The position numbers and the translations under genes are program-made. Source: Selaginella tamariscina (lineage: Eukaryota; Streptophyta; Lycopodiopsida; Selaginellales; Selaginellaceae). Taken from it: DNA of 64,000 bases. The first letter of the stretch is position 1. Each line of letters starts with the position of its first letter. Under the pieces are notes generated by a model that searched no databases, had not been told where the DNA came from, and saw nothing but the letters and a program-made list of their open reading frames with translations. Shown here piece by piece: positions 1,980 to 59,659 of this stretch. The stretch is from positions 390,535-454,534 of the forward strand of contig PUQB01000052.1 of the NCBI GenBank assembly GCA_003024785.1. The letters run 5' to 3'.

Positions 1980-2012
<33 letters not shown>

Positions 2013-3400
2013 AGGTATGTATGTATGATGTATAACATTTGTCTATGGGTATGCACACGCTTTGTGGCATATATACGTCATATACGTATGTAATATATGT
2101 CCATATGTGTGTGTGTCTGTGTGCTACTATAGATCAAGCAATTGAGACACGGGCGTATCGTTTAGAGGTGAAGATGTCAGGAATCGAATCCAATGGGAAA
2201 ACCAACAGTGCACGCACGTGTGTGTTATACCTGGCTTCAATTGCTTCTTTGAGGCCCCAGTCCTGGCGTTCATGATCATGAGTGTCACCTGGTCCTATTA
2301 AACGCGAAGTTTGCTTCCCCTGTCCAGTTGCATCGCCTATCTATCTATATATATATATTGTGCATGTGCATGTGTGTGTGTTTATACTAGAGCTCGATCT
2401 CTTCTTTGCATATTTGTATGAATATACGCTATAGCTAAAATGCTTCTAATAATCAGTTTAAGAAGCAACATACACATATGTATGTATACGCCTATGTGTA
2501 TGTTTGACTTACCACGTAACACTCTTGCATGCCCAATCTTCCCATTCTTGTGCTCATAGGCAACCAAACCATTCTGGAAAAGAATGTATACCACTTTCGG
2601 GAAAGATAAGAGTCTTTCTGGGTCCTCCAGAACATGTCAAGTTCATGACTCATGTAAGTGTATGTGTGTGTGTCTATATGTGTATGTACTTGATTTGTTG
2701 CTCTAATCACAAAATAAACACACATGCTAAACTTAAAACTAAATACCTTAAGTTCGTTATATAATATAATTTTTATAAATTCATTATGAAAGTATAACTA
2801 TATGTTAAATCGTGTTTGAAACATAAACTTAGTGTCATTATATAAACTACGTTACGATAACAAAACAAAAACAAAAGAGTTTAATGTTTTTGGAGAAGTT
2901 TATATTCTTGAAATTATAATATTATAATAGAGGTTTTAAGAGAATTTCATGTTTTAGAGAATGCTATTAATATTGAAATTCTTTTTATTATAGAACATTT
3001 AATAAATCTTTATGAAAGTTTTGTTCTAATTTAAAATTTTCTAAACGTTTAATATACATTTCGATGTCTAATTTGGGATTTTTTTTTCAAATTTTATGTA
3101 TATTTTCCCCTTTATAATGTGGTAATTAATCAAAACTTGATAAATACTAAAAATTGAGAAAAACATGTATTTAAAAATACTTATATATTGTATATAGATG
3201 AAATCCATTAACTATGAAGATATTTTTTAATTTAATATTCTCTAAATTCATATAAAATCATTTAAATAATTATTTAATTAACTGTGATTAAGAAGGGGGG
3301 CTGAATTATGAAAAACTAACCATAAAGTGTATATATTTAAGTTTTTCATATCCAATTAAATAATTATATATGTGTTTTATGTTTATAGCTTTGGACACTT
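1960..3400. repeat. Duplicated block, copy 1 (partner 31851-33930)
   Basis: The sequence from the TC-rich/(TA)n run at about 1960 through about 3360 is found again, diverged, at 31851-33930. Matching landmarks are a GGAGGTATGTATG segment, the exon-like blocks at 2231-2620, the AAACTTAGTGTCATTATATAAAC segment near 2825, and the AAATCCATTAAC segment near 3200. Copy 2 carries about 980 bp (32618-33597) absent here, and lacks part of the exon-like block near 2550-2620. Confidence 0.85.
2231..2620 (-). pseudogene. Exon-like blocks of an unrecognised gene (copy 1)
   Basis: On the minus strand two open, non-repetitive blocks end at good donors. The block ending at 2513 (followed by GTAAGT) reads ...LFQNGLVAYEHKNGKIGHARV.... 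The block ending at 2231 (followed by GTATAA) starts near 2320 after a CAG and reads ...RLIGPGDTHDHERQDWGLK.... Copy 2 of the block at 32085-32440 keeps the second and a damaged form of the first. They could be consecutive exons of the gene whose possible first exon survives at 32876-33061. I do not recognise the family. Confidence 0.45.
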
Positions 3401-10833: not shown

Positions 10834-10985
10834 TTTATGCTTAGAAAATTTATGGTCTGTTAGTGTCTTCTGAGCAGTCCACGTGTCAATATCGGGTTGG
10901 TTGGGGGTGTGATTGCCTTGGTTTTTGATAGATTTGACAGAGAATATCTCATCATTGGATTTTGTATTTCTCGAATTTATGCCAC

Positions 10986-11006
10986 GTTGTAACTAAAGTG
11001 GGCATG
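10986..11006 (+). repeat. Left terminal inverted repeat
   Basis: Reads GTTGTAACTAAA, then G, then TGGGCATG. It pairs with 25579-25599 at 20 of 21 positions. The following 150 bp contain GGAATATTCC and TTAGAATATTC palindromic motifs that also occur inside the right end. Confidence 0.7.
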
Positions 11007-11265
11007 ATACGTGAAAATGGGAATATAAAATAAATTACTAATTAATACTTAAGTTTTAATTATTAATTAATCATTTAATTAATATGTAATTAAGCCTTAA
11101 ATATTAATTAATTAATTAATTAATCCTTCAATAACCTTACTTAGTAAGGAATATTCCTAAAATATCTTAGAATATTCATATTATTCTAAAAATAGTTTAC
11201 AATAATGAAGAAATACTATCAAACATAATTACAAATGAAATCATTTTCTTATCAACATGTTAATT
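11007..11265. other. AT-rich subterminal region
   Basis: TTAATTAA-rich sequence with GGAATATTCC near 11140 and TTAGAATATTC near 11166. No gene seen. Confidence 0.5.
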
Positions 11266-11268
11266 TTT

Positions 11269-12456
11269 TTATAAATACTTTCTTTCTATCATACAAAGAA
11301 ATCTTTTCATTTTGTCTAAATCATCACTCTCCGGATTAATCAAATCATTTTGGTCAATATCTTGATGTTGTTGCCACCACTTAACACTCTCACGAATGCA
11401 ATTGGGAGTTGCCATCCTTGTTAATACATAAGATGTGATAAGAGAAGGTCTGCATAAAGGCTCATCTAAAAACTGACGTTCCTTAAGAATAATATTATAA
11501 AGCGCCCGGTTGCTATCCTTCATTTTATAAAATTCAATATCACGAGAAAGAAAAGCTTCAGGAAATGTATGATACGGTGGATACTGCTCACAAAAATTTT
11601 CGAGATTCTTCTTTCTGAGGCACGTATCCAAGTAGTTCACTAGCTCATCCATGATATCGATATCAGAATATGGATCGAAAGTGATTGGATGAATACAAGC
11701 AATGTTTTGGTTGAGCATAGCCTTCTGAGGAGAGTCGTCTACTACTAAGATATGTGCATTCTTCGTTATCCTTAAGCGACTGATCTCCCCATGAGTCCCA
11801 ATTATTCTTTCATTCTTGAAGAAGTATGGCTTGCTTTCCTTTCTTATATTGTGAAATTCGAGAGGTTTATACACATTCGCTGGTCAAAAATCCAATCTTT
11901 ACGAATCACCTCTTCTGCAACACTACAATGTTTCTTAAGTAAACTCAACAGCGGTGTTAAGTTATGAATCTGCATGCATGACCAAATCCCCACAAGCGCA
12001 CCCATCTCCTTAAGCTTTTGAAAGAGACGATCCAACCCTGGACGAAAAATAATATCATATCGAAATTTACCATGACAAGGAATGAAATCTCCTTGTTTGA
12101 TTTCTTTTTTCTATCCTCGGGCCTTTGTCGATGAAGCAGAACACCATTGACATCCAACAACACAATATGGCCATGAGTAACATGAGATAGCGTTGCCTCT
12201 TGAATACTTTGCAAATCACTTGTTTGCTCCCTTTCACATTTATCCGTTGCCACTATTCGTTGCCTATCCCTTCATCATTTAATTGTACATCATCCTTACA
12301 AGATTCAGATATTGCATGCGCTGAAGAAATTGATTTCGGAACTGAAGCCAATAAAAATGATGATGCAAAAACTGAAGTGGCCCCCATGGTAACGATGTTT
12401 TGAGCTGCATTATTATCCATTTCCTGCATGAACTCTGTCATTCTGACATGTGGCAC
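11269..12456 (-). pseudogene. Decayed FCP1/NLI-like HAD phosphatase
   Basis: Family role: HAD phosphatases of the FCP1/SCP type dephosphorylate serine on protein partners. In minus-strand order I see motif I as LLDVNGVLLHR (near 12150; canonical DxDG, here DxNG), motif II in ALVGIWSCM (near 11980), a motif III region ESKPYFFK (near 11830) and motif IV VVDDSPQK (near 11735). A helical C-terminus ends at 11269. The frame breaks by single-base-type shifts at about 12253, 12055 and 11875, so it is a pseudogene. The N-terminal ~65 residues (from 12441) are Ser/Asn/Ala-rich. It lies downstream of, and co-oriented with, the ParB/methyltransferase-like gene. The Asp-to-Asn change in motif I would be expected to impair catalysis even if the frame were intact. 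Confidence 0.75.
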
Positions 12457-12459
12457 AAG

Positions 12460-12712
12460 AAATTGTCGCCAAACCCCTCTCTTACCTCATGGCAATGCTG
12501 AAAATCCATGTTCTCAATTATTTCATTACATCTGCAAAATGATAATTAGCTGACCTTAAAATTATCAAGGTATATTATTTACCTTGTTAATGTGTGACCC
12601 ATGTTTGAACTAAAAGCTTCATTAATCCTTGAGAATTTATTTTCTGTACAAATATAAAAGAAATATACAAAAATGCCTTATGTTACACTCATTTACAACT
12701 ATTCATCACTCT
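12460..12712. other. Gap between the two decayed minus-strand genes
   Basis: AT-rich spacer. On the minus strand a CAG acceptor near 12535 and a GTAAGA donor near 12485 bracket a short stretch with ATGGATTTTCAGCATTG, possibly a 5' exon of the HAD-like gene. Unproven. Confidence 0.35.
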
Positions 12713-12713
12713 A

Positions 12714-15700
12714 TCAATTCATTATCAATTCTTCTTCGCTATTACCTTCTGAATGAGGCGAAGAAGGTCTAAGCCGCTTGTGAGATGGTTCAAGATCTTC
12801 TGCATCTTCTATTGATGTTTCCATGGGTCCTGGAGTGTGCGAATGTTCTGTACTCCTCGAGATAACTTCCGGTCTAATATCTGATTGATGTTCGTTCTCA
12901 GACTCCGAGATTGAACCAGATTCACCTTCAGAGCTATCGCACTTATCTGGAGGGAACTTTCTCAAATACGCCTTTATGGATCGTTGGGGTACTCAGTTGA
13001 GACCCAATCTATCCACTTGTTCAGGTCCTCAACCATGGTCTTATCCTTCTCAACGGCAAACACACATGTATGCCGAAGGTAACACTCCTTCAAGACGGAC
13101 CCCCTAGTGCAGTAGTCAAAAACCCACGCATCACTGTGAGGACCCCTGATCAAGTTGACGATGCTCCGTGCCGCTTGACTTGTAATGTTTGGATAACGTA
13201 CATTGCCGAATACGTCACTCATACCTATCGGTGTATCGGATGGAGGTTCAGGGCCGTTGGAGTGCAAACAGATGCCTGGCCAGTCATTTGGAAGCTTGAA
13301 ATTGTTTGGCGCATTCCTAACAACCAAGTGAACAACAGTATCAATGCACTTGGGATTAGCATCGTTCATATAAAATCCTGTCCAACGATGTCTATTCTTC
13401 TTGGCGAAGGCGAAGGCAAAAGTATCGGTGACATGAGCAAGAATCAAGAAATAAATACCTGAAAAAGTAGGTATCAGTGAAGAGCGCAAGCATGAATTCA
13501 ATAATAAATACCTTCTATGTATATGCTTGCACGGCTAAGTTTCTCCACCAGATCCTCTAGTGCCCTATCTGTCGAAAGATTTTTTGACACCCGCCGATCC
13601 ATCACGAACAATTGAAACGGTTTCCTACAAGCAGTGATGTTACCCCATAAAGTCTCCGAATCTAACAACAAACATCTGTAGGGCTTGTCGTGATTCGTAG
13701 CATCCTCCTTTATAAGGTTCAATTCGGTTCTCCGCTGCTGAAGGACTGCCATAAGAGAAGGCGTCATCCCAATGTTCTCCTTTTTGGCGTTGGCGTGCAA
13801 TAGATTCTTGCCTAGATCTTCCGATTGGTTCACCCATTCGACAAGCATATCATCGTTCGTCACATGCAAATATTTGCTAACCTCTTCATATGTTGAAGTC
13901 GAGGTCCAACCCAGTTTGTGGCAGTGTATTCCCAACCACTCCTTGAAATGCCTGACCGTCTTCAACTCCATTGCCTTGAGATGAAAAGGAGAGGTTGGGC
14001 TGCTGTTATTAATTTGTAGTTTGCCATCGATCACCAAATCAGCCAAGACTTCCATCTCCTCCATCGTTGTTCCATTTAAAGGCTTCAACCATGTGAGCTT
14101 GAAATCGTTGTCTACATCCTTTGTAGATTGAACAGACTTAGCCTTCGGCGTCTTACTGGGTTTCTTTGCAGACTTTTCTGAGGGCTCCCCTTCACTTGTC
14201 TGCTTCTTCTTCAGTGTTCCTTTTGAAAAGGATTCCATAATCCCCAACCATTTGGCAAAGATCCTATCTTCGGGGCAAGAAATCAACATCATCAGAAATG
14301 TTTCCTTCCCGCCCACCTGGGCAAAATCAACTGCTGCAATTTCTTCAACTCTCTGAGGAAAAAGACAGATTAATATACCGGCGAGATAAATCCCGCCCAA
14401 ACAATTTGCTTACCCGGTATTCCGCAGATTGTGTATTCCCTGCGGTAGCTCTTTGTGGTCGCTGAAGAGATTCCCACACGGCTCGCGTGTGTTTAAACTT
14501 CTCCCATATTTTGCTGTTGTAGTGGTTGGTGTCGGCAGCGTCCCATTCCGCCGATAACTTATGGTACTGCTCGATTGTGAGATTCGGCTTAGCTAAAAAC
14601 GCCGATCTTTTTGTCAGCTTCTCACGGGTATGCTCGGAAAGTTTTAGTTGCCATCGTTCCTTTGTTGTGTTCATCGAGAAGTCGTTGGGCTGCCGTTATT
14701 GTGTGCTGGCCACTAATGATGTAGTACTTGATAGATCTTTTATTCTCCGTCTGAATCTTCATGAGTTGTTCTGGTGTTGTGATCCAGACTTTGTCAGCAC
14801 CCTTCCTTCTTTCATAGTATGGACACAAAACAGCATTATGTGGAACGGTATAAGAATTGTCGTCCTTCATCTTCTCCATGAGCTCAGCTACACGTTCCTG
14901 GTTGAGTGGCCTGTAATTGAAGTTTGGGTTGACGCTGCAATATTTAACCCTACAAGGATAAATCTTATCATCCAACATCATTTCCTTGTGACTTATTGCA
15001 GCATGAGATGCCACAGGTGCAGCTGACAAAACGATTGATGATTTTCTTTTGCGATCCGAATCAACATGTGTGATCCCCGACTGCAGCTGTTCTAGTGTTC
15101 TCGGCACACTCTCCAGCTCCCGAAGCTTCCTAAGCAAATTGAACGTGATCTGTAGAGAACCTGAGACCGAGCCACCTTCTCAATCCCTTATGATGTCGCT
15201 GTGTTCTTCTTCAATGTCAAGAGGGAAGATTGCTCCACTTGCTGATTTTCTGTATTGTGAAGCAATATCTCCTGACAATACACCTACTCGATGAGTCTGA
15301 AGATCTTCGAAGTAGACATCCAGATGGATCCCCTCCATAGATGGGCTTTCGTTGAGTTGAAGAAGAACTCCAAGGTCAACATCATTAGTGAACACGTGAA
15401 CGTCATTATCCACAAGTCGACAAAACCACCCGAGATTAATGTTGTAACTGACGACCTCTGGATCCGAGAACGTGACATTGGATGGAACAAGGCATATCTT
15501 GTCGAGCATCGTCCAATCTTGGGTTCGCAGCCTGCTTCGGGTGCTTGACTAGCGAATCTACTTTCCATTGTTTTGCTTGTCCATGAGATGTGACAGAGGT
15601 TAATTTGACAGCAACCATGGTTGCTCCAATGCGCTTCCCATTTATCTTAAAATATGGCCAAGTTGATTCCAGAATCCCCCTGCCCATCTCTTCTCCTGCT

Positions 15701-15868
15701 CTTGTCTTTAATGTCACTCAATTCCACATCTGAATACAAAAATGATTAGTTCAAGTATCCGAGTATAACAGATTTTATTTTAATTCTTACCCAGAATTTG
15801 ACGACGACTCCATACTAATGACTCGATCTCCTTGTTTGATCAAATCGTCCTTCTGCAAAATAATACAC
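12714..15868 (-). pseudogene. Decayed ParB-like / DNA-methyltransferase-like protein
   Basis: Minus strand, N to C. A short exon lies at about 15855-15791 (DLIKQGDRVISME), with a CAG acceptor and GTAAG donor. An N-terminal region (15717-15180) follows, then a ParB/sulfiredoxin-like fold (about 14990-14680) with NYRPLNQERVAELMEKM and YYIISGQHTITAAQRL, the last like the GxHR/GQHR nuclease-fold motif. A Lys-rich linker lies near 14190. The C-terminal half resembles a beta-class DNA methyltransferase: VNLIRGPHSDAWVFDYCT (motif X to I-like, near 13120-13175) and FAVEKDK (motif II-like). The motif IV DPPY expected near 13580 is replaced by VMDRR, so activity is doubtful. Introns of 61 bp (14353-14413) and 53 bp (13459-13511) splice in frame. 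There is an in-frame TGA near 15182 and frameshifts near 15700, 15510, 14650 and 12970. The acidic tail ends at 12714. Confidence 0.7.
14380..14397. repeat. Palindrome variant inside an intron
   Basis: GGCGAGATAAATCCCGCC, two mismatches from the 18-bp array palindrome, lies within the 61-bp intron 14353-14413 of the ParB/methyltransferase-like gene. This ties the palindrome family to the gene and not only to the flanking arrays. Confidence 0.85.
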
Positions 15869-15869
15869 T

Positions 15870-16140
15870 ATAAATATAAAATATAAAAACGCACACACAC
15901 TTGTATAAACCCGAATATACAAAAATAATACACAGAGAGAAGTAGACGTAATTAACTGTCCGAAGCTCACATTTGTGTTAGTGCAAAAGAAAGATAACAT
16001 TTCGTTTTAGAACCACCACAAATGTGAGCTCTGGACAGTTTTACATAGATTCCTAGCTTTTACTCGAAATATTATGATAAGATGATAAAAGTAAATAAAA
16101 TGAGATATGCAACTTATATATACTAATATATATTCACATG
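15870..16140. other. Upstream region of the ParB/methyltransferase-like gene
   Basis: AT-rich sequence with CA runs (15890-15960). A CACAAATGTGAGCTCTGGACAGTT segment at 16017 is nearly an inverted copy of AACTGTCCGAAGCTCACATTTGTG at 15954-15977, so 15950-16042 can form a hairpin with ~24-bp arms. Confidence 0.6.
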
Positions 16141-17640
16141 GAAGGATTAATCTCGCCACCCCTTCAATGCCTCCTGAAAGAGTGGGCGGGATTAATCTCG
16201 CCACCTTTCTGGAGGCCTTGAACGGGAGTGCGGAATTAATCTTGCCACCCTTCTCGGTCTCAGAGAGAACTGGGCAGGATTTATTTCTCACACCCCTTCA
16301 GTGACTCCAGAAAGGAGGCGGGATTAATCTCGCCCACCATGTAAGGGATGGTTAAATGAATCTCGCCACCCTTCCCAGTCCCCTCCATTGGTATGTTGTA
16401 AACCTTCTACGTCTTAGACAGAAACGTTTGGGATTGGTCCAACTCACCAATGGAGGAAAAAGGGAAGGGTGGCGAGATTCATTTCTCCAACAGGCATTGA
16501 AGACTCGGCGGGATTAATCCCGCCGCCCAGGGCCTTCACTCGATCCCTATGCGGCGGGATTAATCCCGGACGCCAATTCCCTGCGCGGAATCGGGCGGGA
16601 TTAATTCCGCCGCCTAGGCACTTCAGGCAGGCCAATGGCGGCGGGATAAATCCCGCCCGATTTCGCACAGGGCATTGGCGTTCGGCGGGATGAATCCCGC
16701 CTCCCAGGCCCTGTGCGAAATCTTGCGGGATTAATCCCCGCCTAGGCCCTTCAGGCAGGCCAATGGCGGCGGGATAAATCCCGCCCGATTCGCGCAGGGC
16801 ATGCGTACACGGCGGGATTAATCCCGCCCACCATGTAAGGGATGGTGAAATTAATCCCACCCCTTCTCGGTTCCCTCCATTGGTATTTTGTAAACCTTCT
16901 CCGTCTCAGACAGAGTTAGGCGGGATTGATTCAACATACCAATGGGATAATGAAGGTTCGGAGATTAATCTCGCCACCGGGTAATGAAGGTTCGGCGGCT
17001 AATCCCGCGCCCTCTCGTAAATCATGCGCTCACACATATATATTGGCTGCGGCATTTTTGAACAGGGATGGGTGGGGGCGGGATTAATCCCGCCCAGGGA
17101 ATTCACGCAGGACATGAACGGCGGGATTAATCCCGCCGCCCTCCGCGAAGGGCATGAGCGTGGGGCCGGATTAATCCCGGCGTTCATGTCCTGCGTGAAT
17201 TCCCTGGGCGGCGGGATTAATCCCGCCGCTCTACGACAAACCGAAGAGCGCGGGATTAATCCCGCCGCCCATGGCCTGCGTGAGGGGCCTCGGCGGCGGG
17301 ATTAATCCCGCCGCCCATTCCCTCTAAATGCCCTGCGCGGAATCCGGCGGGATTAATCCCGCCCATTAGAACCTTCACACAGGCCATTGCCGGCGAGATA
17401 AATCCCGCCGCATTCCGCGCAGGGCATGGATGAGCGGCGGGATTAATCCCGCCGAGGCCCCTCACGCAGGCCATGGGCGGCGGATTAATCCCGCCGCTCT
17501 TCGTTTGTCGTAGAGCGGCGGGATTAATCGCGCCACCCATGCCTGAGGCCTCGGCGGCGGGATTAATCCCGCCGCCATGGCCCCAACTATATAGCGGCGG
17601 GATTAATCCCGCCGCTCGAGGGGCTTAGCGAGATAAAACA
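16141..17640. repeat. Palindrome array 1 (GGCGGGATTAATCCCGCC)
   Basis: About 25 copies of an 18-bp palindrome at 25-70 bp spacing. About 13 hold the exact core GGGATTAATCCC (near 16510, 16558, 16730, 16813, 17079, 17123, 17213, 17251, 17298, 17349, 17439, 17559, 17599). The others differ at one to three bases, often keeping dyad symmetry (TAAATCCCGCC, TGAATCCCGCC). Spacers are GC-rich and also repeated. A ~115-bp direct repeat (16336-16455 and 16829-16945) includes a palindrome and a CCATGTAAGGGATGGT segment. Open frames through the array read GGINPA/AGLIPP repeats; I regard them as by-products. The array lies just 5' of the minus-strand ParB/methyltransferase-like gene. Confidence 0.9.
17090..17545. 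repeat. Nested long inverted repeats within array 1
   Basis: Spacers recur as reverse complements. CAGGGAATTCACGCAGGACATG (from 17096) opposes CATGTCCTGCGTGAATTCCC (from 17184). GCTCTACGACAAACCGAAGAGC (17228) opposes GCTCTTCGTTTGTCGTAGAGC (17496). ATGGCCTGCGTGAGGGGCCTCGG (17270) opposes CCGAGGCCCCTCACGCAGGCCATG (17453). AATGCCCTGCGCGGAAT opposes ATTCCGCGCAGGGCAT (17411). The last three pairs nest around about 17370, so ~300 bp can fold as one hairpin decorated with the small palindromes. Confidence 0.85.
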
Positions 17641-18270
17641 CACACATATATATATGTGTGTGTGTATATATATGTATGTATGTATGGGGTACGTGTGTGT
17701 GCAAGAGATAATAAATAAATAAAATTATACAGTACTGGTACACTAATATGTGTGTACATAGGTATATATGTGTGTATATGTATATCGTGTGTATGCGTGT
17801 GAGCGAAACAAATAAAATCATACAGATAAACAAACACACACACACACATATATATAACAGGAGTGTGCGTGTGTGTGCGAAAGATAAAACTAATAAATAA
17901 ATAAAATTATACAGATAAACACACACATATATATGTGTGTATATAGATATATAATCTATAGAGAAAGAGAGAGAGTCTGTGAATATATAAGCATATATAT
18001 AAACTAGTGTTGTATGTATGTATATATATATAGGTATATATATATGTGTATATGTATATTGTGTGTATGCGTGTGTGAGCGAAACAAATAAAATCATACA
18101 GATAAACAAACACACACACACACATATACATACACAGGAGTGTGCGTGTGTGTGCGAGAGATAAAACTAATAAATAAATAAAATTATACAGAAAAACACA
18201 CACATATATATGTGTGTATATAGATATATAACCCATATGAATATATAAGCATATATATAAACTAGTGTTG

Positions 18271-18322
<52 letters not shown>

Positions 18323-18384
18323 GCAGTGCGCGTGTGTGTGGGAGAGATAGATCAATAAAAAAAAATTTACAGATACTGGTACAC

Positions 18385-18452
<68 letters not shown>

Positions 18453-18720
18453 GCAGATCAATAAAAAATTTACAGAACTGGTACACATAATATATGTATG
18501 TATATATGTATATAGGTATATATATATATGTGTATATGTATATCGTGTGTATGCGTGTGTGAGCGAAACAAATAAAATCATACAGATAAACAAACACACA
18601 CCCACACACATATACATACACAGGAGTGTGCGTGTGTGTGCGAGAGATAAAACTAAATAAAATTATACGCACACTCCTATACATATATACATACATACAC
18701 ACACACACACAGATCTCACC
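17636..18720. repeat. CA/TG and TA microsatellite block with higher-order repeats
   Basis: Dense (TG)n, (CA)n and (TA)n runs. Above them, a longer unit is repeated: GAGCGAAACAAATAAAATCATACAG occurs near 17805, 18075 and 18565, and AAACTAATAAATAAATAAAATTATACAG near 17885 and 18165. This gives three to four imperfect units of roughly 250-500 bp. Long Tyr/Thr/His-rich frames are artefacts of the repeats. Confidence 0.85.
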
Positions 18721-18905
18721 TGTGTGCACAGCGCCGCCGCCGATTTCACAGCCGCCGCCTCTTGAAACCCTAAGAATATACCTAAACCCTAAAGGAATTA
18801 ATATATATATCAACCCTAATAGAATATTCCTTCTGAGAATATACTTAAACCCTAAAAAGAATAAAATATAGATTCGCCCTAAACGAATATTCTTTCATTA
18901 TATTA
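18715..18905 (+). promoter_or_regulatory. Promoter/leader-like segment with telo-box motifs
   Basis: A GC-rich patch (CGCCGCCGCC) is followed by several AAACCCTAA motifs (18770-18880) and AGAATATTC palindromes. AAACCCTAA (telo-box) is a known plant promoter element. No ATG-led gene follows directly, so a regulatory role is only a suggestion. Confidence 0.35.
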
Positions 18906-19097
18906 TTAGCGCGTGCGTGTGCGTGGGTGTATCACATACACCTCAAAAATATAAATCATGCAGGGATTTAACATGTGTGTGTCCATGAGAGTGTTAAAGT
19001 TTCATGTGTATCAATACATACATACACATTGCATATATTAATACACATAATATATACATACACACGTGTATACACACAGACATACACACATATTACA

Positions 19098-19125
19098 TGG
19101 GTTTAGGGTTTAGGGTTTAGGGTTT
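19098..19125 (+). repeat. Short interstitial telomere-type repeat
   Basis: Three to four consecutive TTTAGGG units, the standard plant telomere repeat; a shorter degenerate run lies at 19560-19585. Confidence 0.8.
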
Positions 19126-19129
19126 TGGA

Positions 19130-19510
19130 TTTAGGATGGATCATGCATGGTGTGTATGTATGAGAGAAGAGAGAGTGTTGAAAAATTATTTTTGTACACA
19201 TTGCATATATTAGTACACATATATACTTACACATATTATACACAGATATACATACATAGTATATGAGAGAAGAGAGACAGTACATATTATGGATCATGCA
19301 TGGTGTGTATTATACACACAGACATACATACATATTAGTACATAATATTAGAGAGACCGAGTACATATTATAGATCATGCATGGTGTGTATGTTTGAGAG
19401 AAGAGAGACAGTACATATTAACATGGATCATGCATGGTGTGTATGTATGAGAGAAGACAGAAAGTACACATATACATACAGAGTACACATATATACATGC
19501 ACACGTGTAT
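19130..19510. repeat. Minisatellite, ~50-bp unit
   Basis: A unit containing GGATCATGCATGGTGTGTATGT, AGAGAAGAGAGA and CAGTACATATTA recurs near 19137, 19289, 19373 and 19425 with interruptions. Confidence 0.75.
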
Positions 19511-19858
19511 ACACACAGACATACATACATATTACATGAGTAAATTCATTGTGTTACATATTAGGGTTAGGGTTTTTTAGGGTTTGCTCCCAACAAGCTT
19601 AATATAAATATTACACATGTAAATTCAATGTGTTACATACAGTCACACAGATTGAGTACATATATCATACATGCGTTGAACATGATGTTTTCAATAAAGA
19701 AGCAACCTATTTCTTCAGTTTGGTTTAGGGTTGTGCATGTGTGTGCATATGTGTTTTGTAAGTTCTTGTAATGCGTGTGTAAATTTATGATTGTGTTTAT
19801 ATATGTGTGCAAAACAAACATCGAATAATTAAGAAAATAAATTAATAAACACACTAGG

Positions 19859-20249
19859 AACATATTTTAAATTATACATAATAATATATGATTTTATCTA
19901 ATATATAGCCATATATAGTTTTAATAATATATATTAATTTAATATTGATAAAAGGTTTAACATTGAAATATTCTTGAAATAATAAGAAATTAATTGAGAA
20001 AATCCCATTAATATATACAAATGTAAATTAAGTACTCAAATAATTAACTAAATTAATTATCATAATCATGTTTAATATTGGAATATTCTTGGAATAATAA
20101 GAAAATAATAAAGATATCCATTAATATAAAGAAGATTAATTACTCAAGTAATTAAGGAAATGATATTAATATATATATTATTAAACTATATATGACTATA
20201 TATTAGATAAAATGATGTATTATTATGTATAATTTAAAATATGTTCATA
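19859..20249. repeat. AT-rich inverted repeat, ~82-bp arms
   Basis: The left arm (19859-19940, from AACATATTTTAAATTATACA) matches the reverse complement of the right arm (20166-20249), with a ~225-bp loop. Part of the left arm returns in direct orientation near 20515-20560. A second, direct repeat unit (TTTAATATTG...GAATATTCTTGAAATAATAA...TTGAGAAAATCCCATTAA) occurs near 19935-20015 and 20258-20335. The arrangement resembles stacked MITE-like insertions. Confidence 0.8.
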
Positions 20250-20559
20250 GTGTGTATTAATTTAATATTGATAATAAGGTTTAAACATGAATATTCTTGA
20301 AATAATAACAAATTAATTGAGAAAATCCCATTAATATATACAAATGTAGAATAATTACTGCAATAATTAAGAACAAGACTAATTTAATTATGATAATCAG
20401 GTTTAATATTAGAATATTCTTCAAATATTAATAAAATATAAAGAATATCCCATTGATACTAGGAAATGAAAACTAAATACTCGAGTAATTAAGAATAAAA
20501 TAATAAACAGACTATGAATATATTTTAAATGATACATAATAATATATCAATTTATTTAT

Positions 20560-20822
20560 TGTATAAGTATATATTTATATATATATATATATATATAAAT
20601 ACTTGAATACTAAGAATGTAGAATATAGTCTAAAATTTCGTAATATTAAACAGCTTGAATCACTTGAATAACATTAAATGCAATTTTAAAATACTCATTG
20701 GAACTGGAGAGTATATATGTCAGAGTGTCGGATATTTGTGTCAACTCATCTTAAATTTTATTTTCTGTTCTTTTTAAAAATTTGAATTTCTGACATATGT
20801 ATTGTCGGTCTGACATGTAAAT
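20560..20822. other. AT-rich region before the leader exon
   Basis: Contains a (TA)n run at about 20574-20596 and no coding signal. Confidence 0.5.
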
Positions 20823-21007
20823 TTGAAAATGCATTTAATTTCCCACTCAAATTCAGATCTGGTTCTTTCTCCGGCAAGGGTTTCTTCATTTCTGTATTTT
20901 TCACTCTTTAGATCTTCTTTTTTCTTCATAGTGATCATCTCAGGAGCGAGATTAAATTGGGTGCTATTCTTTATAGGAAAGCACGGCGCCTTCAGTGCTG
21001 TTTACAA
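20823..21007 (+). other. Probable leader/first exon of the DUF7869-like gene
   Basis: C/T-rich, more complex sequence (TTCTTTCTCCGGCAAGGG) ends at 21007 in front of a consensus GTAAGT donor. The next good acceptor on this strand is TTTATGTGCAG at 22066. That would make array 2 part of a 1059-bp intron in the leader of the downstream gene. The ATG at 20829 opens a 62-codon frame that stops just after the donor; I do not claim it is coding. Confidence 0.45.
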
Positions 21008-21171
21008 GTAAGTATTATAAACAAATTTAAAAATACTTATTAAGATTCACTCTCTTACATTCTCTCTTAAAATTACAATTTAGGGGTTTAGAAATGCATT
21101 AGGATTATAATATATTCCGTTAGGGATTTATCACGTTTAAATATCCTTTTAACTTAATATTCTAGGTTAAC

Positions 21172-21925
21172 CGGGCGGCGGGATTAATCCGGCCATTTCT
21201 TTTTCGCCTCTTTGAAGAAGTGGCGGGATTAATCCCGACCATCTCCGGGCAATGCTTCTCCGCCACTGAAAAAGAGTGGCGGGATTAATCCCGTCGATAA
21301 CCTTCTCAACTGATGAAGAGTTACCAGAATTTATTAGAAAGAGTTGTCGGCGGGATTAATCCCGCCAACCATTTTAGGAGGCAGGGAAGGGGTGGCGGGA
21401 TTAATCTCGCCACCACTTCCTGTTTTAAAGATTTGGGGACAGGATTTATCCCGAGATCTCTTTGAAATCATAGTTTTGGAGAGAGTTATGTGCGGTTTAA
21501 TCCCGCCACCCATTCCCCGTCGTAAGAATTGTGGGCGGGATTAATCCCGCCTTGGACTCCCTCCGACAAGGAAGAGCCGGCGGGATTAATCCCGCCTCTT
21601 CCTCCCGAGGAAGGGAGTCCGGCGGGATTAATCCCGCCGACTCTCCGGCGAGGAGTCGGCGGGATTAATCCCGCCGACTCTCCTCCGAAGGAGAGTCGGC
21701 GGGATTAATCCCGCCGGACTCCCCCGAGGAGGAAGAGGCGGCGGGATTAATCCCGCCGGACTCCAGGAGGAAGAGGCGCGGATTAATCCCGCCGACTCTC
21801 CTTGTCGGAGGGAGTCGGCGGGATTAATCCCGCCGACTCTCTCCGAAGGGGTTGAGTCGGCGGCGGGATTAATCCCGCCGACCGTTCCTCGTCGGAGGGA
21901 TTCGTGGGGGATTAATCCCGATCAG
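21172..21925. repeat. Palindrome array 2 (GGCGGGATTAATCCCGCC)
   Basis: About 17 copies of the array-1 palindrome, roughly a dozen with the exact GGGATTAATCCC core, spaced 35-75 bp. From 21540 on, copies are close to perfect. Their spacers (GACTCTCC, GAGGAGTC, GGACTCC, CTCCGAAGGAG) also form dyads, giving compound palindromes over 40 bp long near 21640-21720. The array lies in the inferred intron between 21007 and 22067, upstream of the plus-strand DUF7869-like gene, mirroring array 1. Confidence 0.9.
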
Positions 21926-22066
21926 TTGTATTAATCAAACATGAGATATTATCTCTAAACATAATTATGTATTATTGCATATGCATATTATTAAGTAACC
22001 GTAATTCAGATTTCTTAAAATATTGCATAAACAGATATCATAAATAATACAATTATTTATGTGCAG

Positions 22067-25000
22067 GACAATATGTTTAATACTGGAGATAAAGTATGTC
22101 TTCTTCGGAACAACGAGATAGTTGGCACTGGAACTGTGGAAGTTCGAGATAATAATGCATCATGTCACAATATTTCCCAAGGATCTTGTGTGTACGTATG
22201 GGTGAACACCATTTACAAGCATGTTGAGGTTCTGGGAATGGAATTTGAGGAGGGTTCTCCTGTATTGTGGAATTTGGATGAAGTCAAGGCTGACACAAAT
22301 ATGCAGAGTCACAAACAAATAGTAGCACGAGTTTACCAGATGATGGCTTGCCTGCTGTAATGGATGAGGTGATTCTCTTTCTTCGTGAGATTGAAGTCGG
22401 AAGAGGCATCATCACAGCTATAAATCCAATGGAAGCAGTGTCAGAAGAGAAACTAGGGTCCGACTTCGTGGGTGTAGTTGTGACAGAGGTTTCACCTAAT
22501 GGCACATTGTATCCTGGATCCCTCGTGAGGTGGCGAACATCTGAATTAAGACAAGATGGTTCAACATATTCTGGGTTGGATTTCAATAATAACAACCCGG
22601 AAGAACAACTCATATTTGAAGAGGTTCCTTGCATTGGTCCTATTGTAAGAAAAAGGCGATTCATGGGTTGTAGATCTTCCCCTGCAAGTTTCAGCAAGAG
22701 GGTAAATGGATCCTACATCTTCCGAAAGTGTTACGAGCATTTCCACGATTGACTGTTGCAAGAAGAAGTGTTGTCAGATGGCAGACCGGAATGAAATTAC
22801 CCAATTAGACATGTCTTTCGTATGCTCACCCAAAAGCAAAGGCATGAGTTTGTATATGCTGCACTAACTGGGTGTATTGGGAATGGCCTCGGACACAGGT
22901 TATCAGAGTACATCCATGGTATTTAATAAGGTGGCATCTGCTTCAAAGCTTGGTACAGTATATACGGGATCCCAAAGACCACGTTCTACCGTCGGAGGAT
23001 GAGTGGCTAGATGGAGCGCGAACCTCAGTTCATGGGAACACTGCTTGGTCAAAACCCGCTCTCACATCATGGCAGCCATAGAGATACTCAAGGCTTTTGT
23101 GGAAGCAAATGCAGACAGGATGCCTCACAAATGCCGAACCACAAATGCAGGGGTCAGGGAAATCTCAAGGTTTTACCTTCAATCTACACTCAATTGAAAC
23201 TGTGTGAACATGTGAACAAGTGCCTCAGTTTGATGGGGCTCCAAGCAATCTGCACTGGTACCTTCACAACATATGGAATACTCATTTTAAGGATGTGGAG
23301 ATTGCAAAACACTCTGCTTTTCTAAGTGTGACACTTGTACATCATTGAAGGCTGCAGAGGCTTGTGCAAAACCTTGGTGAGATCACTACCATTCAAAGGA
23401 AGATGGAGGCCCACATGATTGCACAACAAACTTGTCGTCTCAGTACTATGCACACCATGCTTTCTGTATCAGCCCATCAGATACCTGTGCTTGATCCATG
23501 ACAAGATGGATCATTCAAAGACAGCATTCCAAAGCTCTTTGCAACACCAAAGTGCCTTGGAAATGTCATGAAACTTCGATTTCTTTAACAGGTGTGCTAA
23601 CATGGACACGGTTGTGAGTCATATGGAACTTTTCACTTCCACATTGGTCTAGCGACTCCAATTTCACTATTGGGTCGTTAGCCATGTGTTTCAGAAACCT
23701 TGAAGCCCACTCACAGACAAGTCCTATCAGTGATCTCAAAGTGAAGAAACAAACTTCAACCTTTACATAATGCTCTCATGAACACGTCTGCACTTGAGGC
23801 TACTTGGAATATAGAGGCATTGTCAGCAACCTGCACAAAAAACAGATGGCCCTGTTGAGAGTTCAGGTTCAGTGGAGGGATCTAGCTCAAATAGTGTACA
23901 TGTGTCCTCAACATCAAATAAGCTTCCTCGTCATTTGCTTTAAGATGGATAATTGTGCAGGCGAGAACAAAAATAAGGTAAATCATTTTACTAAGGGTTT
24001 CTCAAGCTCATACTTACTTTTATTTTCTAGATATGTGCTAGCATACTGTCAATGCTTTTGCCAAAGTGTGTTTGAAACAATCACGCTCAGTTTCCTTTGG
24101 TTGGTCACACTCATGAAGATATTGATGCGTTCTTCAGCAAGGTCTCCAACTCTACAAAAAGGACAAGTGCACTTACCTTACCGCATATGATGAATCTTTT
24201 TGAAAATTGCATCTCCAAAAAAAGTTTGCTTTGCTTGTGACTGAGGTGCCGACTTCAAAAATTTCTCAAGGAGTATTAAAAAGGGAGTGATTCTTTAGTT
24301 GGACCTTGTGCCGCTACAATTCTTTTTCTCCATACGAGATGGTATACCTATTATGCAGTACAAGTTAGGCATCAGAGCAGGAGTGGTTACCGAAAGAGGG
24401 CTTAATGCTCTTCAAAGTGGAGAGGATGAAAGCCACTTCTCCCAGAAGGAAACCAGACCCTATTCCATTGAGTGCCCAGCTCAAGGAACAAGAGGTTATT
24501 ATTGATGGCATCAAAAATATGTGGCATGGGTTCAAAATCGATGCCAAAGAATTCTGATAAGGCAACTGGTTACTCAGAACTATATAAGCATGTGGTCAAC
24601 TATTGGAGACTGTTGTTCGAAGTTGGAAGGCCTACTATCACAAGTACAGAATTGCAACACCCTTTCTGCCTAAAACAAGGTGGCGAGAGATTGAAATGAC
24701 ATCACTGAGCACAGACGACATAGAAGCCAGTAGTGATGTGGAAGTGCAAACCCACACTTTGTTGGACAAAGGAACCAAAAACCTAAAGCATACTTTGATT
24801 GCTGCAAGGATCTTCAAAAACTAATGATGGTTCTCATTACTCCAGATGCGTCATATAATCAGCCTATTTGGATGGGTCAAATTATCGAACACCTGAAGTA
24901 ATCACAAAAATAGTATGTTAAGGTTGCATGGTTCAAACCAAACAAAAAAGGCGACACGAGAAGGAGAGCGAAAATAATGGATGCCTAGAGAAACATGGTC

Positions 25001-25116
25001 TCCCAATCAAAAACCGCATGTTTTATAATGTTAAATCCATTCGATATGGGTGGATCAAGAGCGTTGAAAAGTCACGATTAACAAACTGCAAGGAATGTAT
25101 GTTTTCTGAAGCTTAA
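22067..25116 (+). pseudogene. Decayed DUF7869-like (transposase-like) protein
   Basis: Starts after the acceptor at 22066; the first ATG is at 22073. The N-terminal segment (22073-22352), with IVGTGTVEVRDNNASCHNIS, resembles DUF8039-type domains of plant mobile-element proteins, and a second similar unit follows at 22370-22570. Further on, NADRMPHKCRTTNAG and EISRF (23110-23170), then KMDNCAGENKNK (23943-23980) and a shifted GHTHEDIDAFFSKVSN (about 24095-24150), match the DUF7869 signature (DNC.RENKN ... VGHTHEDID), whose acidic and His residues suggest a DDE-like nuclease fold. Continuity is lost at many frameshifts and stops. A Lys-rich end is at 25116. Family assignment is from memory of the motif pattern. 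Confidence 0.6.
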
Positions 25117-25578
25117 AGCAATTACAAATTATAAAATATCATATATTTAATATTCATAATTATTATAAACTCTTTAATATAGTACAAATTGTATACTTAA
25201 CTATATAAATTAAAAATGATATGGAAGATTGACTATATTATTATAGGATTTTATATATATATTATTACTACTACAATTTTAATTAATAATTATATTTAAT
25301 ATTAATTTTAATAACAACATCATATTTATATAATGTACCTCTTATGCTCTTCCTTAATTGTTATATTAGGCATATATTATATAATTTAATACATTCTACT
25401 TTTTAATGTTATTAATTTTTGTTCAATGAATGCTATAATTTTAAAGGGTAGAATACAAATAGAATATTCTAAAGAATATTCTCTTTTCAAACATATATTC
25501 TAAAGAATATTCCTTTAATATTAAAAATGCTAATTAAATAGCTAAAAATTGCTAATTATTAGGAAATGGGACTATAGC
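25117..25578. other. AT-rich right subterminal region
   Basis: Very AT-rich. Three AGAATATTC/GAATATTCT palindromic motifs (25460-25515) mirror those near 11140-11180 at the left end. Confidence 0.5.
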
Positions 25579-25599
25579 CATGCCCATTTTAGTTACAAC
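25579..25599 (-). repeat. Right terminal inverted repeat
   Basis: The reverse complement reads GTTGTAACTAAA, then A, then TGGGCATG, pairing with 10986-11006 with one mismatch. Gypsy A sequence resumes at 25600. Confidence 0.7.
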
Positions 25600-25699
25600 T
25601 TATATTTCCCTATTCTTGGATTTCAAGATTCCCTTGTGTGAATGATCCTGTCGATGTTTTCAGAAGATTTTGCGTACGTTTACCCGCCATGTTGACACG

Positions 25700-27199: not shown

Positions 27200-28540
27200 A
27201 TCAGCTTGTTGATGTAGTTTGCCTGGTTTGTGGATAATTTGAAAGTCGAACTCCTACAAGAGTAAGAACTAGTGTACTAATCTTCCTTCTAGCTTGGTCT
27301 TGCTTAATAAGTGTATAAGAGCTTGATGATCGACAATGAATTTGACTTCATTTGCTAGCAGATAATGCTGAAATTTCTTGGCTGCATAGACCATTCCGAG
27401 TGCTTCCTTTTCCGTATCGTGTAGTTTTCTTCTGCAGGTGCTAACCGTCAACTTGCGTAATATAATGGACGTTCTTTTCTGTCTTCTTGGTTTTGTGTTA
27501 ATATGCATCCGATAGCGTGTATGACAATGCGTCCACTTGTACATGAAATTCTTGTCTCCAATTTGGGCTAGCTAGAATGGGAACCTTCATTAATGCTTGC
27601 TTGAACGTGTTAAAGCTCTATTTACATTGCGGATCCATTTGAATGGTTGTTGTTTTCCTTAAGGTATAGTTAATGGTTTCGCTATTGCTGCATAGTTTTT
27701 TGATGAATCATCGATGATATCTCATTTTTCCAAGGAGCCTTCGTCCTCCGCTTACATCTTTAGGAGGTTGCATTGTTTGTATTACTTTGACTTTATCTTG
27801 GTCCACCATTATTCATCTTTGCATATAATATGCCCGAGTAGGACTCCTGATTTTACAGAAAATATGCACTTCTCCAAATTAAGAGCTATATTGTTTAATC
27901 GGCATTTCCCAAAACACTTTGTTAATAGTCTAGGTGTTCGTCTTGTGTTCCTTAGATGCTAAATTATCCAAGAAACTTTCATAAATGTGGTCAGATAATC
28001 CCGGAATGTTTTATTAACCAAACGTTGGAAGGTAAATGGTGCATTACATAACCCAAAAGGCATAACTCGATACGCATATGTACCCCAAGGACTAACGAAT
28101 GCTGTTTTTGTTGATCTGCTAGGTCCACTTGTACTTGGTTGTATCCTGAAAATCGTTCAGAAAGGAATACATTTCGTGTCCTACTACCGTATCAAACAAT
28201 TCTTTTGTGAAGGGTATTGGGTATGTATCCCGCCTTGTTACATCGTTCAATTTCTTATAATTGATGCAGATACGCAATTTGCCATTTTTCTTTGGTACTA
28301 CAACAATTGGTGATAACCATTGCGGGTTTTCGATTGGATAAATGAATCCAGCTTGTGATAACTTGTCCACTTCTTCTTTAACTTTTGCCAGGAATGTTGG
28401 ATTCATACGGTATGCTTGCTGTTTCTTAGGGACTACATGTGGTAGTGATTCTATCTTATGGGTACAAATTGTTTGGTGGAACTCCCTTGAGATCTTCGTA
28501 ATTCCAAGTAAAGACATTTGCATTTTGACATAGTACATTT
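27200..28540 (-). pseudogene. Gypsy A reverse transcriptase and RNase H
   Basis: RT at 28538-27700: YRMNP, GFIYPIENPQWLSPIVVVPK, KLRICINYKKLNDVT and HEMYSFLN fit the gypsy RT palm. The catalytic YLDD region near 27990 is degenerate. RNase H at 27550-27200: LHDTEKEALGMVYAAKKF, HYLLANEVKFIVDHQAL, then EFDFQIIHKPGKLHQQADFL. Stops and shifts between 27700 and 28119 disable it. Confidence 0.85.
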
Positions 28541-31850: not shown

Positions 31851-32084
31851 CCTCTCTCTCTTATATATATATGGAGGTATGTATGTATGATGTATAACAT
31901 TGTCTATGGGTATGCACACGCTTTGTGGCATATATACGTCATATACATATGTAATATATGTCCATATGTGTGTGTGTCTGTGTGCTACTATAGATCAAGC
32001 AATGAGACACAGGCATATCGTTTAGAGGTGAAGATGTCAGGAATCGAATCCAATGGGAAAACCACTACAGTGCACGCACGTGTG

Positions 32085-32440
32085 TGTTATACCTGGCTTC
32101 AATTGCTTCTTTGAGGCCCCAGTCCTGGCGTTCATGATCATGAGTGTGACATGGTCCTATTAAACGCGAAGTTTGCTTCCCCTGTCTAGTTGCATTGGGA
32201 CCTATATATATTGTGCATGTGCATGTGCATGTGTGTGTGTGATTTATACTAGAGCTCGATCTCTTCTTTGCATATTTGTATGAATATAGGCTATAGCTAT
32301 AATGCTTCTAATACTCAGTTTAAGAAGCAAACACACACATATGTATGTATACGCCTATGTGTACGTTTGACGTACCAAGTAACACTCTTGCATGCCCAAT
32401 CCATTCTTGTGACCAAACCATGAACTTGTCAAGTTCATGA
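32085..32440 (-). pseudogene. Exon-like blocks of an unrecognised gene (copy 2)
   Basis: The block ending at about 32093 before GTATAA keeps THDHERQDWGLKEAIE as in copy 1. The other block (32375-32440) has lost about 100 bp relative to copy 1. Confidence 0.45.
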
Positions 32441-32832
32441 CTCATGTAAGTGTATGTGTGTGTGTCTATATGTGTATGTACTTGATTTGTTGCTCTAATC
32501 ACAAAATAAGCACACATGCTAAACTTTAAAACTATAATATAATTTCATAAATTCATTATAAATGTTAAAATCGTATTTCAAACATAAACTTAGTGTCATT
32601 ATATAAACTACGTTAGAATACACATCTCTCTCTCCTCTCTCTCTCTCACACACACACACACATCACCTGTATACATTGTGCATATACGTAATAAAGTATA
32701 ATGTGTATATACGTTAATTTTATATGTAATACATAATATAAAACACAATATATATGTTAACACTATAACTTAATAAACATTATGCGTGTGTGTATAACGT
32801 GTATATATGTGCGTGCGTGTGTGTATAACGTG

Positions 32833-32873
<41 letters not shown>

Positions 32874-32875
32874 AC

Positions 32876-33061
32876 CTTGCGGCGATCGATGGCCCAATTG
32901 ACAATGTGGTTGCATAAATCAACCACCTGTTGCTCTTTGCCATCTTCCACGATGAGTGTGGAGCTAAGAACTAGAGATCTACCTGTATCAGCCCTTATTG
33001 TAAGGGCGAACCCTCATTGCCTGGGATTCTTCTGCCTGTCTACCGGCCGCCATGCTGCCAT
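32876..33061 (-). pseudogene. Possible first exon of an unrecognised gene
   Basis: The ATG at 33061 lies about 20 bp after an AAACCCTAA telo-box (33080-33090, reverse). The frame reads MAAWRPVDRQKNPRQ, then TGA, then continues in the same frame as GFALTIRADTGRSLVLSS and VVDLCNHIVNWAIDRRK, and ends at a GTACAC donor (32875). One nonsense codon (probably CGA to TGA) breaks it. Base composition is far from the AT-rich surroundings. It could be exon 1 of the gene remnants at 32085-32440. Family unknown. Confidence 0.5.
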
Positions 33062-33089
33062 TGTCCCTGTAGCCACGCCTTAGGGTTTA

Positions 33090-33934
33090 TCATCACATTT
33101 GCCCTTAAATTCAGTATACTGTGAAATTATAATTTTATTATTACAAACAATTTAATGTGATACATTATTAAATTTTAATCTATCTAAACACATTCAAGCA
33201 CATTAATATTTAAATCGAATGTTTTATAACTCTTCTAATTATTAATTAATTTTATAATATTTTTTACAATAAAGAGACCAATATTCTTTGTCAAAGTCAA
33301 AATAATTGTCGAAATTAATAAAATAAGTTTCATAATATCTTTTATAATAAAGAGCCAACTAACCTCTATCAAAATTAATAGAATAAATATGGCTAATGAT
33401 TATGAATTAATTTAAGGTTTAATAAAAAGATTGTTTAATATTTATTATACTCATTGTTATCAATGTAAATTTATGACTAATTTAAAATGTAAGCGTTGAA
33501 AATTATCAAAATATATAAAATTTGGGTATTTTATCAAAATTAACATAAAATCTGAAAAATTCTTAAATTATACATAGAATTCTATTTGGGTATTTTATCA
33601 AAAACAAAAAATAAAGAGTTTAATGTTTTGTAGAAGTTTATATTCTTAGAATTTATAATTATAATAGAGTTTTAAGAGAATTTCATGTTTTAGAGAATGG
33701 TATTTAATATCAAAATTCTTTTATAAACGTTTTAATGCTTTATTATAGAACAACTATAAATGAAATCCATTAACCCTGAAGATCTTTTTAATTTATATTC
33801 TTTAAATTCATACAAAATCATTTAAATAATGATTTAATTAACTGTGAGTGAAAACTAGCCTTAAGTTTTCATATCCAATTGGAAGTGCTTACTATATATA
33901 TTAGTGTTGTTAATATAAATTAAAGTATAAACTT

Positions 33935-41402: not shown

Positions 41403-42215
41403 ACCAAGCGCAGGTGTGTCATATTTAATATATAATTTTGTTTACGTTTTTAATTAACCCGATGATGTTTTACTATGGGTTATGAAAGACATACACGCAC
41501 ACACATCGGTTTTATGTGCAAGCATATATATATATATATATACACATGTATACATGTATACATGAATATATATACAGGTTAATACTTGCTTTAATAGACT
41601 CGATGTTATTGCATGCAAAACAGTTTTACTACAAGAACCTAAAAATGATGACGTTGTACAAATAAACTCATTATGATTCAGAAAGTTCATCATTGCGTTT
41701 AAAAAATAATAATAACAAATATTTTTATATAATTATAATTATTATAATTATAAGTAAATTTGAGTATGTTAGTTAAGCATTTAAACTTTGTTCTCACAAA
41801 TAAAAGCATGAAAAAAAAAAATTACAAATACAATGCGCGTATTTCTCATAATAAAAGATACTGTCTTCTACTGGACGTATGGGCCCTACACGTGGCATAA
41901 GTGAATGTAATGTCTATATTCTTCTAATGAAATTGAAAACTTCATTTTTAATTCAAAATTTATAAAAGTGACTGTACAAGTATATCCATGGCATATTCCA
42001 TACATATGTTCGTATATAAGGTGTATGCATATGTTAAACTATGTGTACATAAATGCGTACACACCAACAAAGTGCCTATGGATGTATGTGTCTCACCTGT
42101 GTGTTGTGTGTGTGTGTGTGTTCTATAACAGTAATCGTACCCAATATGCATATATTTGTAGCGACAGTGAGAAGCCAATATATACAGATATAAATGATTC
42201 AATCTATCAAACAAA
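41403..42215. other. 3' region of the H+-ATPase; start of repeat unit A
   Basis: Contains the likely 3' UTR and AT-rich sequence. 41300-41650 recurs, decayed, at 61870-62120. 41800-42220 matches 47500-48340 and 59260-60105 in part (AAAAATTACAAATACAATGC, TATCCATGGCATATTC, GTAGCGACAGTGAGA). No separate gene seen. Confidence 0.6.
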
Positions 42216-42220
42216 TTCAT

Positions 42221-42990
42221 CTAGAACTGCAGCCCATGGAGTATCTTCGTATCCTTGATGCTGGCCTTGATCTTTCTAGTTAGCTTAAGTGCTGCTTTTC
42301 TCCTCTCTTCAAGGAGAGTTGCCTTGTCGGGAACACTATGAATTGGTCCTTCTATTCTCAATCCGTCCGCTATCTTGGGTTTGCACTCGTGATTTGCTTC
42401 TTTGTCTGATGAAGCCTTTCCTGTCTGTGTAAGTCCGTTGCGCATTGCTGCTTCTGATGTATTCAATTGATGATGTGAAATTGGTGGCCTGACTTGTGGT
42501 TTGCCCACCGGTTGAGTGTTGGGCCTTCTCCTCTTGATTGCTGGCTCTTGTTCAGCACATCCGCTTCTCTCCAATTCGGCAGCGCATCCGCTTCTCTTGA
42601 AAATTGATGGCCTGATTTCCACCGGTTGAGTGTTGGGCCTCCTTTCTTGTTCCGACTGCAGGCATCCGCTTCTCTCAATTATTGGTATTAACTCCAGACA
42701 TCCGCTTCTTTCGTTTCCTGGCTTCAACTCCAGACATCCGCTTCTATTTCTTTGAAGAGGTGGCACATCCGGCCACCGATAGCATCTCATGAATCTCTCA
42801 GTAGCTTCTGCATCTACAGCATGTCGATTGGGAGAGATAAATCTCCCTCACCGTATTGGTGAACCTTCACTTCCCAACTCGGCAATAACATCTCCATCTC
42901 CGTGAATTCGTGAGGCCTCTTCCTCTTTCTGGAGGACAACACGCGATCCACAATCTTATCGAGCCTCCTGCTTACCTGATGGTACTCCAT
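42221..42990 (-). pseudogene. RSGC-repeat protein gene, copy A
   Basis: Unrecognised plant protein. It starts MEYHQVSRRLDKIVDRVL at 42990, with a basic RKRKRPHEF stretch and a GEGDLSLPID segment. A middle region of 11-13-residue repeats (ERSGCLELxP) follows, with two RRPNTQPV motifs, then a basic C-terminal helix (LLEERRKAALKLTRKI) ending at 42221. In this copy an 8-bp deletion near 42810 (relative to copy C) shifts the frame after about residue 59. Basic stretches suggest nuclear location; that is inference. Confidence 0.6.
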
Positions 42991-48340: not shown

Positions 48341-48342
48341 AT

Positions 48343-58898: not shown

Positions 58899-58940
<42 letters not shown>

Positions 58941-59621: not shown

Positions 59622-59659
<38 letters not shown>

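Follow-up and report, generated by a model that had tools for sequence, protein, structure and literature searches.

A probable family of giant DNA transposons with DUF7869 and ParB-like genes in Selaginella tamariscina

The 64,000-nucleotide stretch of Selaginella tamariscina DNA analysed here as a whole (hereinafter, the window; assembly GCA_003024785.1, contig PUQB01000052.1, positions 390,535 to 454,534, i.e., C860:390535-454534 in a host assembly of 300.7 Mb and 1391 contigs) harbors a segment with inverted ends which carries three broken genes together with two arrays of one palindrome and which sits inside a gypsy retrotransposon. The locus raises the question of what kind of element this is and how it spreads. 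The segment very probably represents a copy, broken in the window, of a family of giant class II transposons with terminal inverted repeats (TIRs) and 4-bp target duplications, in which a DUF7869 protein and a ParB-like protein would play the roles considered below.

Ends, target duplication, and copies of the element

10979..25603, plus strand: complete element, window copy, 14,625 bp (termini set by other copies; empty site in gypsy relatives)
10979..11006, plus strand: left TIR, ATGCCAC followed by GTTGTAACTAAAGTGGGCATG (seven of eight other left ends read ATGCAC)
25579..25603, minus strand: right TIR, CATGCCCATTTTAGTTACAAC followed by TTAT (TTGCAT in 28 of 30 right-end loci)
10975..10978, no strand: left target-site duplication ATTT (from the sequence; single in gypsy relatives)
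25604..25607, no strand: right target-site duplication ATTT (from the sequence; single in gypsy relatives)
11149..11177, no strand: left subterminal GAATATTC motifs, two (motif count)
25462..25512, no strand: right subterminal GAATATTC motifs, three (motif count)

An earlier note on this DNA, made from its letters, described 21-bp inverted ends with one mismatch, and these are present at 10986-11006 and 25579-25599; a search with up to four mismatches revealed no further copy of the 21-bp end within the window. Taken alone, the TIRs of the window are not decisive, e.g., ten Markov shuffles of the window yielded four chance inverted 21-mers in total. In the host assembly, the 21-bp end pattern has 2926 exact occurrences (1482 forward and 1444 reverse) vs. 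0 + 0 for the reversed-pattern control, which rules out a chance TIR; thus, second copies with these ends, envisaged in the earlier note, do exist in the genome. The left 415 bp of the element gave at least 40 matches elsewhere at 100% (40 of 1282 candidates scored), and the right 415 bp matched at least 40 other places, besides the window copy, at 85-97% (40 of 1666 candidates scored). Inward pairing at a distance of 10.2-18.1 kb was seen for 44 of the first 100 ends listed; 18 of the resulting 22 pairs span 13.8-15.4 kb, and 20 of the 22 combine one G-type with one A-type end. By rough extrapolation, complete copies number several hundred. One pair (L064/L065; C2:121727 and C2:135494) bears an A-type TIR at both ends along with a clean ATTA duplication and possibly represents a subfamily with a different left end.

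Four further complete copies, of 15104, 15055, 14733, and 15075 bp, contain the same genes and arrays as the window copy, with longer reading frames, so copies sharing the gene set, likewise anticipated earlier, have been found. The true termini of the family read ATGCAC-GTTGTAAC...GTTACAAC-TTGCAT, next to a 4-bp target duplication, and most of the other copies seen have TIRs of 27 bp. The element is indeed bounded by TIRs; its limits, formerly given as 10986..25599, are corrected to 10979..25603 by the termini of the other copies. The termini of the window copy are irregular, with an extra C on the left (ATGCcAC) and two bases lost on the right (TT..AT), and this copy and L030 are the two exceptions to TTGCAT among the 30 right-end loci. 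Ten of the eleven GAATATTC occurrences in the window fall inside the element. As a separate observation, the first ~5 kb of the four copies are ~99% alike to the window element (97.8-98.8% in C616) and the last 4 kb 95-96%; recombination or conversion may have left the window copy with halves of different history.

Aligned to the true termini, the sequence of the window copy is ATTT-[ATGCcAC...TT(two bases missing)AT]-ATTT. Hence, the clean target-site duplication that the earlier note missed is represented by the ATTT flanks, blurred by the extra left C and the two lost right bases. An exact 4-bp direct repeat flanks six of 13 end pairs (ATGT, ATTA, GTAG, ATTA, AAGA, and AAAT) vs. 4 of 156 mismatched pairings, in which the left end of one copy was set beside the right end of another. 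Insertion with a 4-bp duplication is directly proven by a nested copy, since it can be seen against its uninterrupted target: CAAAC-ATAA-TTAC vs. CAAAC-ATAA-[ATGCAC...TTGCAT]-ATAA-TTAC. All ten gypsy relatives examined, one of them 99% alike, carry the uninterrupted AATTT-CC site (of 273 candidates, 40 were scored, and these ten matched best apart from the window itself; at most eight are distinct in view of two identical-sequence pairs), and none of the ten naturally holds the segment. Both the lack of a target duplication and a TA target inside the TIR are ruled out by the duplications in other copies, the nested insertion, and the empty sites.

The right flanks of 29 loci, the window's own included (30 were fetched; L030, without an exact end, was left out), are mutually unrelated save one identical and one 82% pair. 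Mobility, assigned conjecturally in the earlier note, is established by the copies with unrelated flanks, the target duplications, and the empty sites; TIRs common to many copies, together with the latter two features, place the element in class II. Eight of the 29 flanks match the element itself, and in seven the match exceeds 300 bp.

Self-insertion appears to be frequent: the right flanks of L013, L014, L016, L017, L026, L028, and L031 lie inside other element copies, the L014 match being weaker (81%) and the L016 and L017 insertions being perhaps one event. The flanks of L016 and L017 (contigs C1182 and C971) are identical over 400 bp, so some allelic or duplicated contigs seem to be present and may inflate the copy counts.

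Gene content and palindrome arrays

11269..12271, minus strand: NIF/FCP1-type HAD phosphatase-like gene, broken here (Pfam PF03031)
12714..15848, minus strand: ParB-like plus amino-methyltransferase-like gene with GT-AG introns, broken; limits set by eye (motifs only)
14380..14397, no strand: lone palindrome with two mismatches, inside a GT-AG intron of the ParB-like gene (pattern search)
16140..17613, no strand: palindrome array 1 (GGCGGGATTAATCCCGCC), 26 sites, upstream of the ParB-like gene (pattern search)
21177..21922, no strand: palindrome array 2, 16 sites, upstream of the DUF7869 gene (pattern search)
22073..25116, plus strand: DUF7869 gene, probable transposase, broken here (PF25273; conserved blocks)

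Two gene blocks diverge outward from the element center, the ParB-like and then the NIF-type gene on the minus strand and the DUF7869 gene on the plus strand; the opposite orientation of the ParB-like and DUF7869 genes recurs in the five copies. GT-AG introns are visible in the element genes, and the reading frames of the window copy are broken, as the decay reported earlier implied. Two of the three gene identities then proposed, DUF7869 and HAD-like, are supported by profiles; the third, ParB/methyltransferase, is recognised by motif and has no profile match.

The profile PF25273 (DUF7869) was matched at 6.6e-29 by the read-through translation of the window and at 5.9e-41 by two joined exons of copy C641, where the frames reach 488 + 360 amino acids; the frames of copy C147 also exceed those of the window. 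The acidic blocks DNCAGENKN and GHTHEDID are kept in all five copies. Judging by these sequence features, the DUF7869 protein is probably the transposase and is better read as such than as the cargo suggested earlier. It would be an RNase H-fold (DDD/DDE) enzyme acting on the TIRs, and broken copies such as the window's would be moved in trans. A cut-and-paste mode would be expected from the class of the element, not from an excision footprint.

The NIF-type gene matches PF03031 at 9.4e-12 in the window read-through and at 1.8e-11 in a trimmed open reading frame (ORF) of 379 amino acids from copy C147. NIF/FCP1 HAD phosphatases are characterized by a DxDx(T/V) motif; the motif reads DVNG (within LLDVNG) in 5/5 copies, so the phosphatase may be inactive.

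The naming of the ParB-like plus methyltransferase-like gene is based on YYIISGQHTITAAQRLL and on the C-terminal FDYC(T/S)RGS...EKD block, which we take to be methyltransferase motif I. The motifs IISGQH and FDYC(T/S)RGS are present in each of the five copies, and the corresponding ORFs of copy C147 comprise 478, 304, and 273 amino acids. The [DNS]PP[YFWH] motif was encountered in 0/5 copies over the three frames of the gene, the presumed site, tentatively placed, reading DRRV. The methyltransferase-like domain may thus be inactive, and DNA binding by this protein is likelier than methylation. The N-terminal stretches of the ParB-like and DUF7869 genes look alike, with a Smith-Waterman score of 62 against a shuffle mean of 22 (0/2000 as high).

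The two arrays of one 18-bp palindrome, described previously, were confirmed: the window has 43 sites (up to four mismatches), all in the element, 42 of them in the arrays and 19 exact, and the four other copies contain 42-48 each, 22-32 being exact. The start-to-start spacing is 36-46 bp in 32 of 40 within-array gaps. The palindrome had no occurrence in the open-licence full-text literature searched. These regularly spaced palindromes, lying upstream of each of the divergent genes, would be bound by the ParB-like protein or by the N-terminal stretch that it has in common with the DUF7869 protein, and by such binding the element would mark or regulate its own DNA. The chances of this putative role seem to fall a little short of even.

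A less probable, though still sizeable, alternative is that tandem or fold-back growth of repeats produced the arrays incidentally and that no protein binds them. It is favored by the orientation of related spacers, the 30 best pairs comprising 17 inverted and 13 direct ones (null maximum 11). Folded as RNA, the array blocks were far more stable (z -28 and -23) than their dinucleotide-shuffled counterparts, and all three blocks beat shuffled spacer letters with the palindromes kept (0/40 as stable). Permuted spacer order was beaten only by the nested fold at 17077-17600 (0/40), whose exceptional stability also suits repeat growth, and not by the two other blocks (4/40 and 6/40; with flips, 7/40 and 20/40). 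At the same time, the palindromes stay alike (likeness 0.88, a value favored by their having been picked by likeness), whereas the 35 spacers are on average near the shuffled level (0.57 vs. 0.53). This fact, the recurrence of 42-48 sites in each of the five copies, and the placement of the arrays upstream of both genes argue against a mere by-product.

Protein binding to the arrays can also be pictured more specifically, as a parS-like system of the element's own. In it, a protein of the ParB family whose methyltransferase domain is dead, and which has an N-terminal stretch in common with the DUF7869 transposase, would load on the 42-48 evenly spaced palindromes preceding both genes and would mark or silence the element or couple it to that transposase. 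Such a system appears unlikely; if it operated, DUF7869, a domain of unknown function, would turn out to be the transposase of a superfamily present in many copies.

The element center (17614-21176) is rich in simple repeats and contains an inverted pair (19849-19921 and 20183-20255, 95%) as well as a telomere-like GGGTTTA run at 19099-19135.

The transposase assignment

Several results weigh against a giant transposon family with the DUF7869 and ParB-like roles outlined above. No profile or solved structure naming DUF7869 a transposase was found; Transposase_23 matches its N-terminus weakly (E 0.03-0.053), which in itself favors the transposase reading, but the score of 14.6 bits stays under the 21-bit cut-off. 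Support for ParB/methyltransferase was found in none of Pfam, NCBIfam, PHROG, and PDB, which leaves a motif-only identity, and single-sequence AlphaFold models of two single ORFs were unusable (predicted local distance difference test, pLDDT, 33-34). For the shared N-terminal stretch, the hhalign probability was as low as 4.6% (E 0.0027), and no match was obtained with phmmer. Seven of the 13 end pairs are without an exact in-register 4-bp repeat (two have 5 bp, one 3, two 2, and two none), and the full-copy comparison covers five copies, the window's included.

It is rather improbable that the family is a passenger moved by another transposase encoded elsewhere, DUF7869, ParB-like, and NIF genes all being captured cargo. 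The broken frames of the window copy are compatible with such a passenger, as is the precedent of the giant Ectocarpus families, which, according to the accessible text of PMC12477816, are presumably mobilized in trans or entirely non-autonomous; the preservation of the DUF7869 blocks in 5/5 copies and the longer DUF7869 frames in C641 and C147 speak against it. Under the preferred reading of DUF7869 as the probable transposase, its association with a demonstrably mobile element possessing defined ends and a target duplication makes this role testable. A ~15-kb DNA transposon with ~2,900 recognisable ends is also unusual in itself.

Known systems and the surroundings of the insertion

EnSpm/CACTA transposons have CACTA-type ends and a 3-bp target duplication, hAT elements an 8-bp and MULE elements a 9-11-bp duplication, and members of the Sola superfamily a 4-bp one. 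The 4-bp duplication found here, equal in length to that of Sola, does not fit hAT and MULE or, along with the ends ATGCAC.../...TTGCAT, EnSpm/CACTA. The element resembles the latter in having TIRs and in the weak, sub-threshold match to Transposase_23 (TNP1/EN/SPM); no other EnSpm domain was found.

The earlier note went too far in stating that the element matches no transposon type its author could name: published giant transposons carry a ParB-methyltransferase accessory gene on the strand opposite the transposase (PMC12477816). Thus, Sola1-1_Ec32 of Ectocarpus, a giant DNA transposon of 21.5 kb, encodes a 1104-amino-acid ParB-like plus amino-methyltransferase protein opposite its transposase (PMC12477816), and in the present element a gene likened to it by motifs also lies on the strand opposite the candidate transposase. 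The latter is a DUF7869 protein here. Other differences are the NIF phosphatase gene and the two 18-bp palindrome arrays, unmentioned in the accessible text of PMC12477816, and a methyltransferase part which here seems to be without its catalytic motif. Transposons of green and red algae also carry ParB-methyltransferase accessory proteins (Iyer 2011; Petroll 2025, as cited in PMC12477816), i.e., the same domain pair in a transposon, likened here by description, and red algae are on record as having giant EnSpm elements with accessory genes (as cited in PMC12477816). Mobile elements with a DNA-methyltransferase-type gene also include retrotransposons that have captured cytosine methyltransferases (PMC5890265), but these, as far as the accessible text goes, belong to class I and bear C5 enzymes, whereas the present element is of class II and its amino-methyltransferase-like domain is probably inactive.

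The kind of element is therefore already known, ParB-methyltransferase genes in giant algal transposons having been published (PMC12477816, accessible text); what is new is the DUF7869 link and the palindrome arrays, neither of which was found in the open-licence literature searched, where "DUF7869" and "GHTHEDID" had no occurrence in full text. ParB-methyltransferase proteins were proposed to bind and modify the DNA of their own transposon (PMC12477816, accessible text), and the palindrome, at 42-48 sites per element in five copies, offers a concrete DNA site for this self-recognition. With the queries used, no phage, plasmid, viral, or prokaryotic relatives were found.

That the segment is natural to gypsy or spreads as gypsy cargo, as its location between the gypsy integrase-like and accessory ORFs might suggest, has a virtually nil probability, a gypsy-internal origin being ruled out by the empty sites in the ten relatives and the mutually unrelated right flanks telling against it as well.

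The presence of gypsy on both sides, reported in the earlier note, is profile-supported for the RNase H ORF (RT_RNaseH Pfam match, 4.5e-10, at 27272-27571); the reverse transcriptase-like and integrase-like ORFs were recognised by eye and have no Pfam match. The host length of ~9 kb given there was not confirmed: because direct repeats resembling long terminal repeats (LTRs) lie at about 2000-3287 and 31862-33847, the host would measure ~17 kb without the element, other repeat fragments included. Neither an Rfam family nor a tRNA was picked up when the window was scanned for them. Farther along the window, another LTR-like block is present in three copies (42082-43316, 48208-49405, and 59974-61362), which probably represent a second retroelement family, and 46064-49385 matches 57842-61235 at 91.6%.

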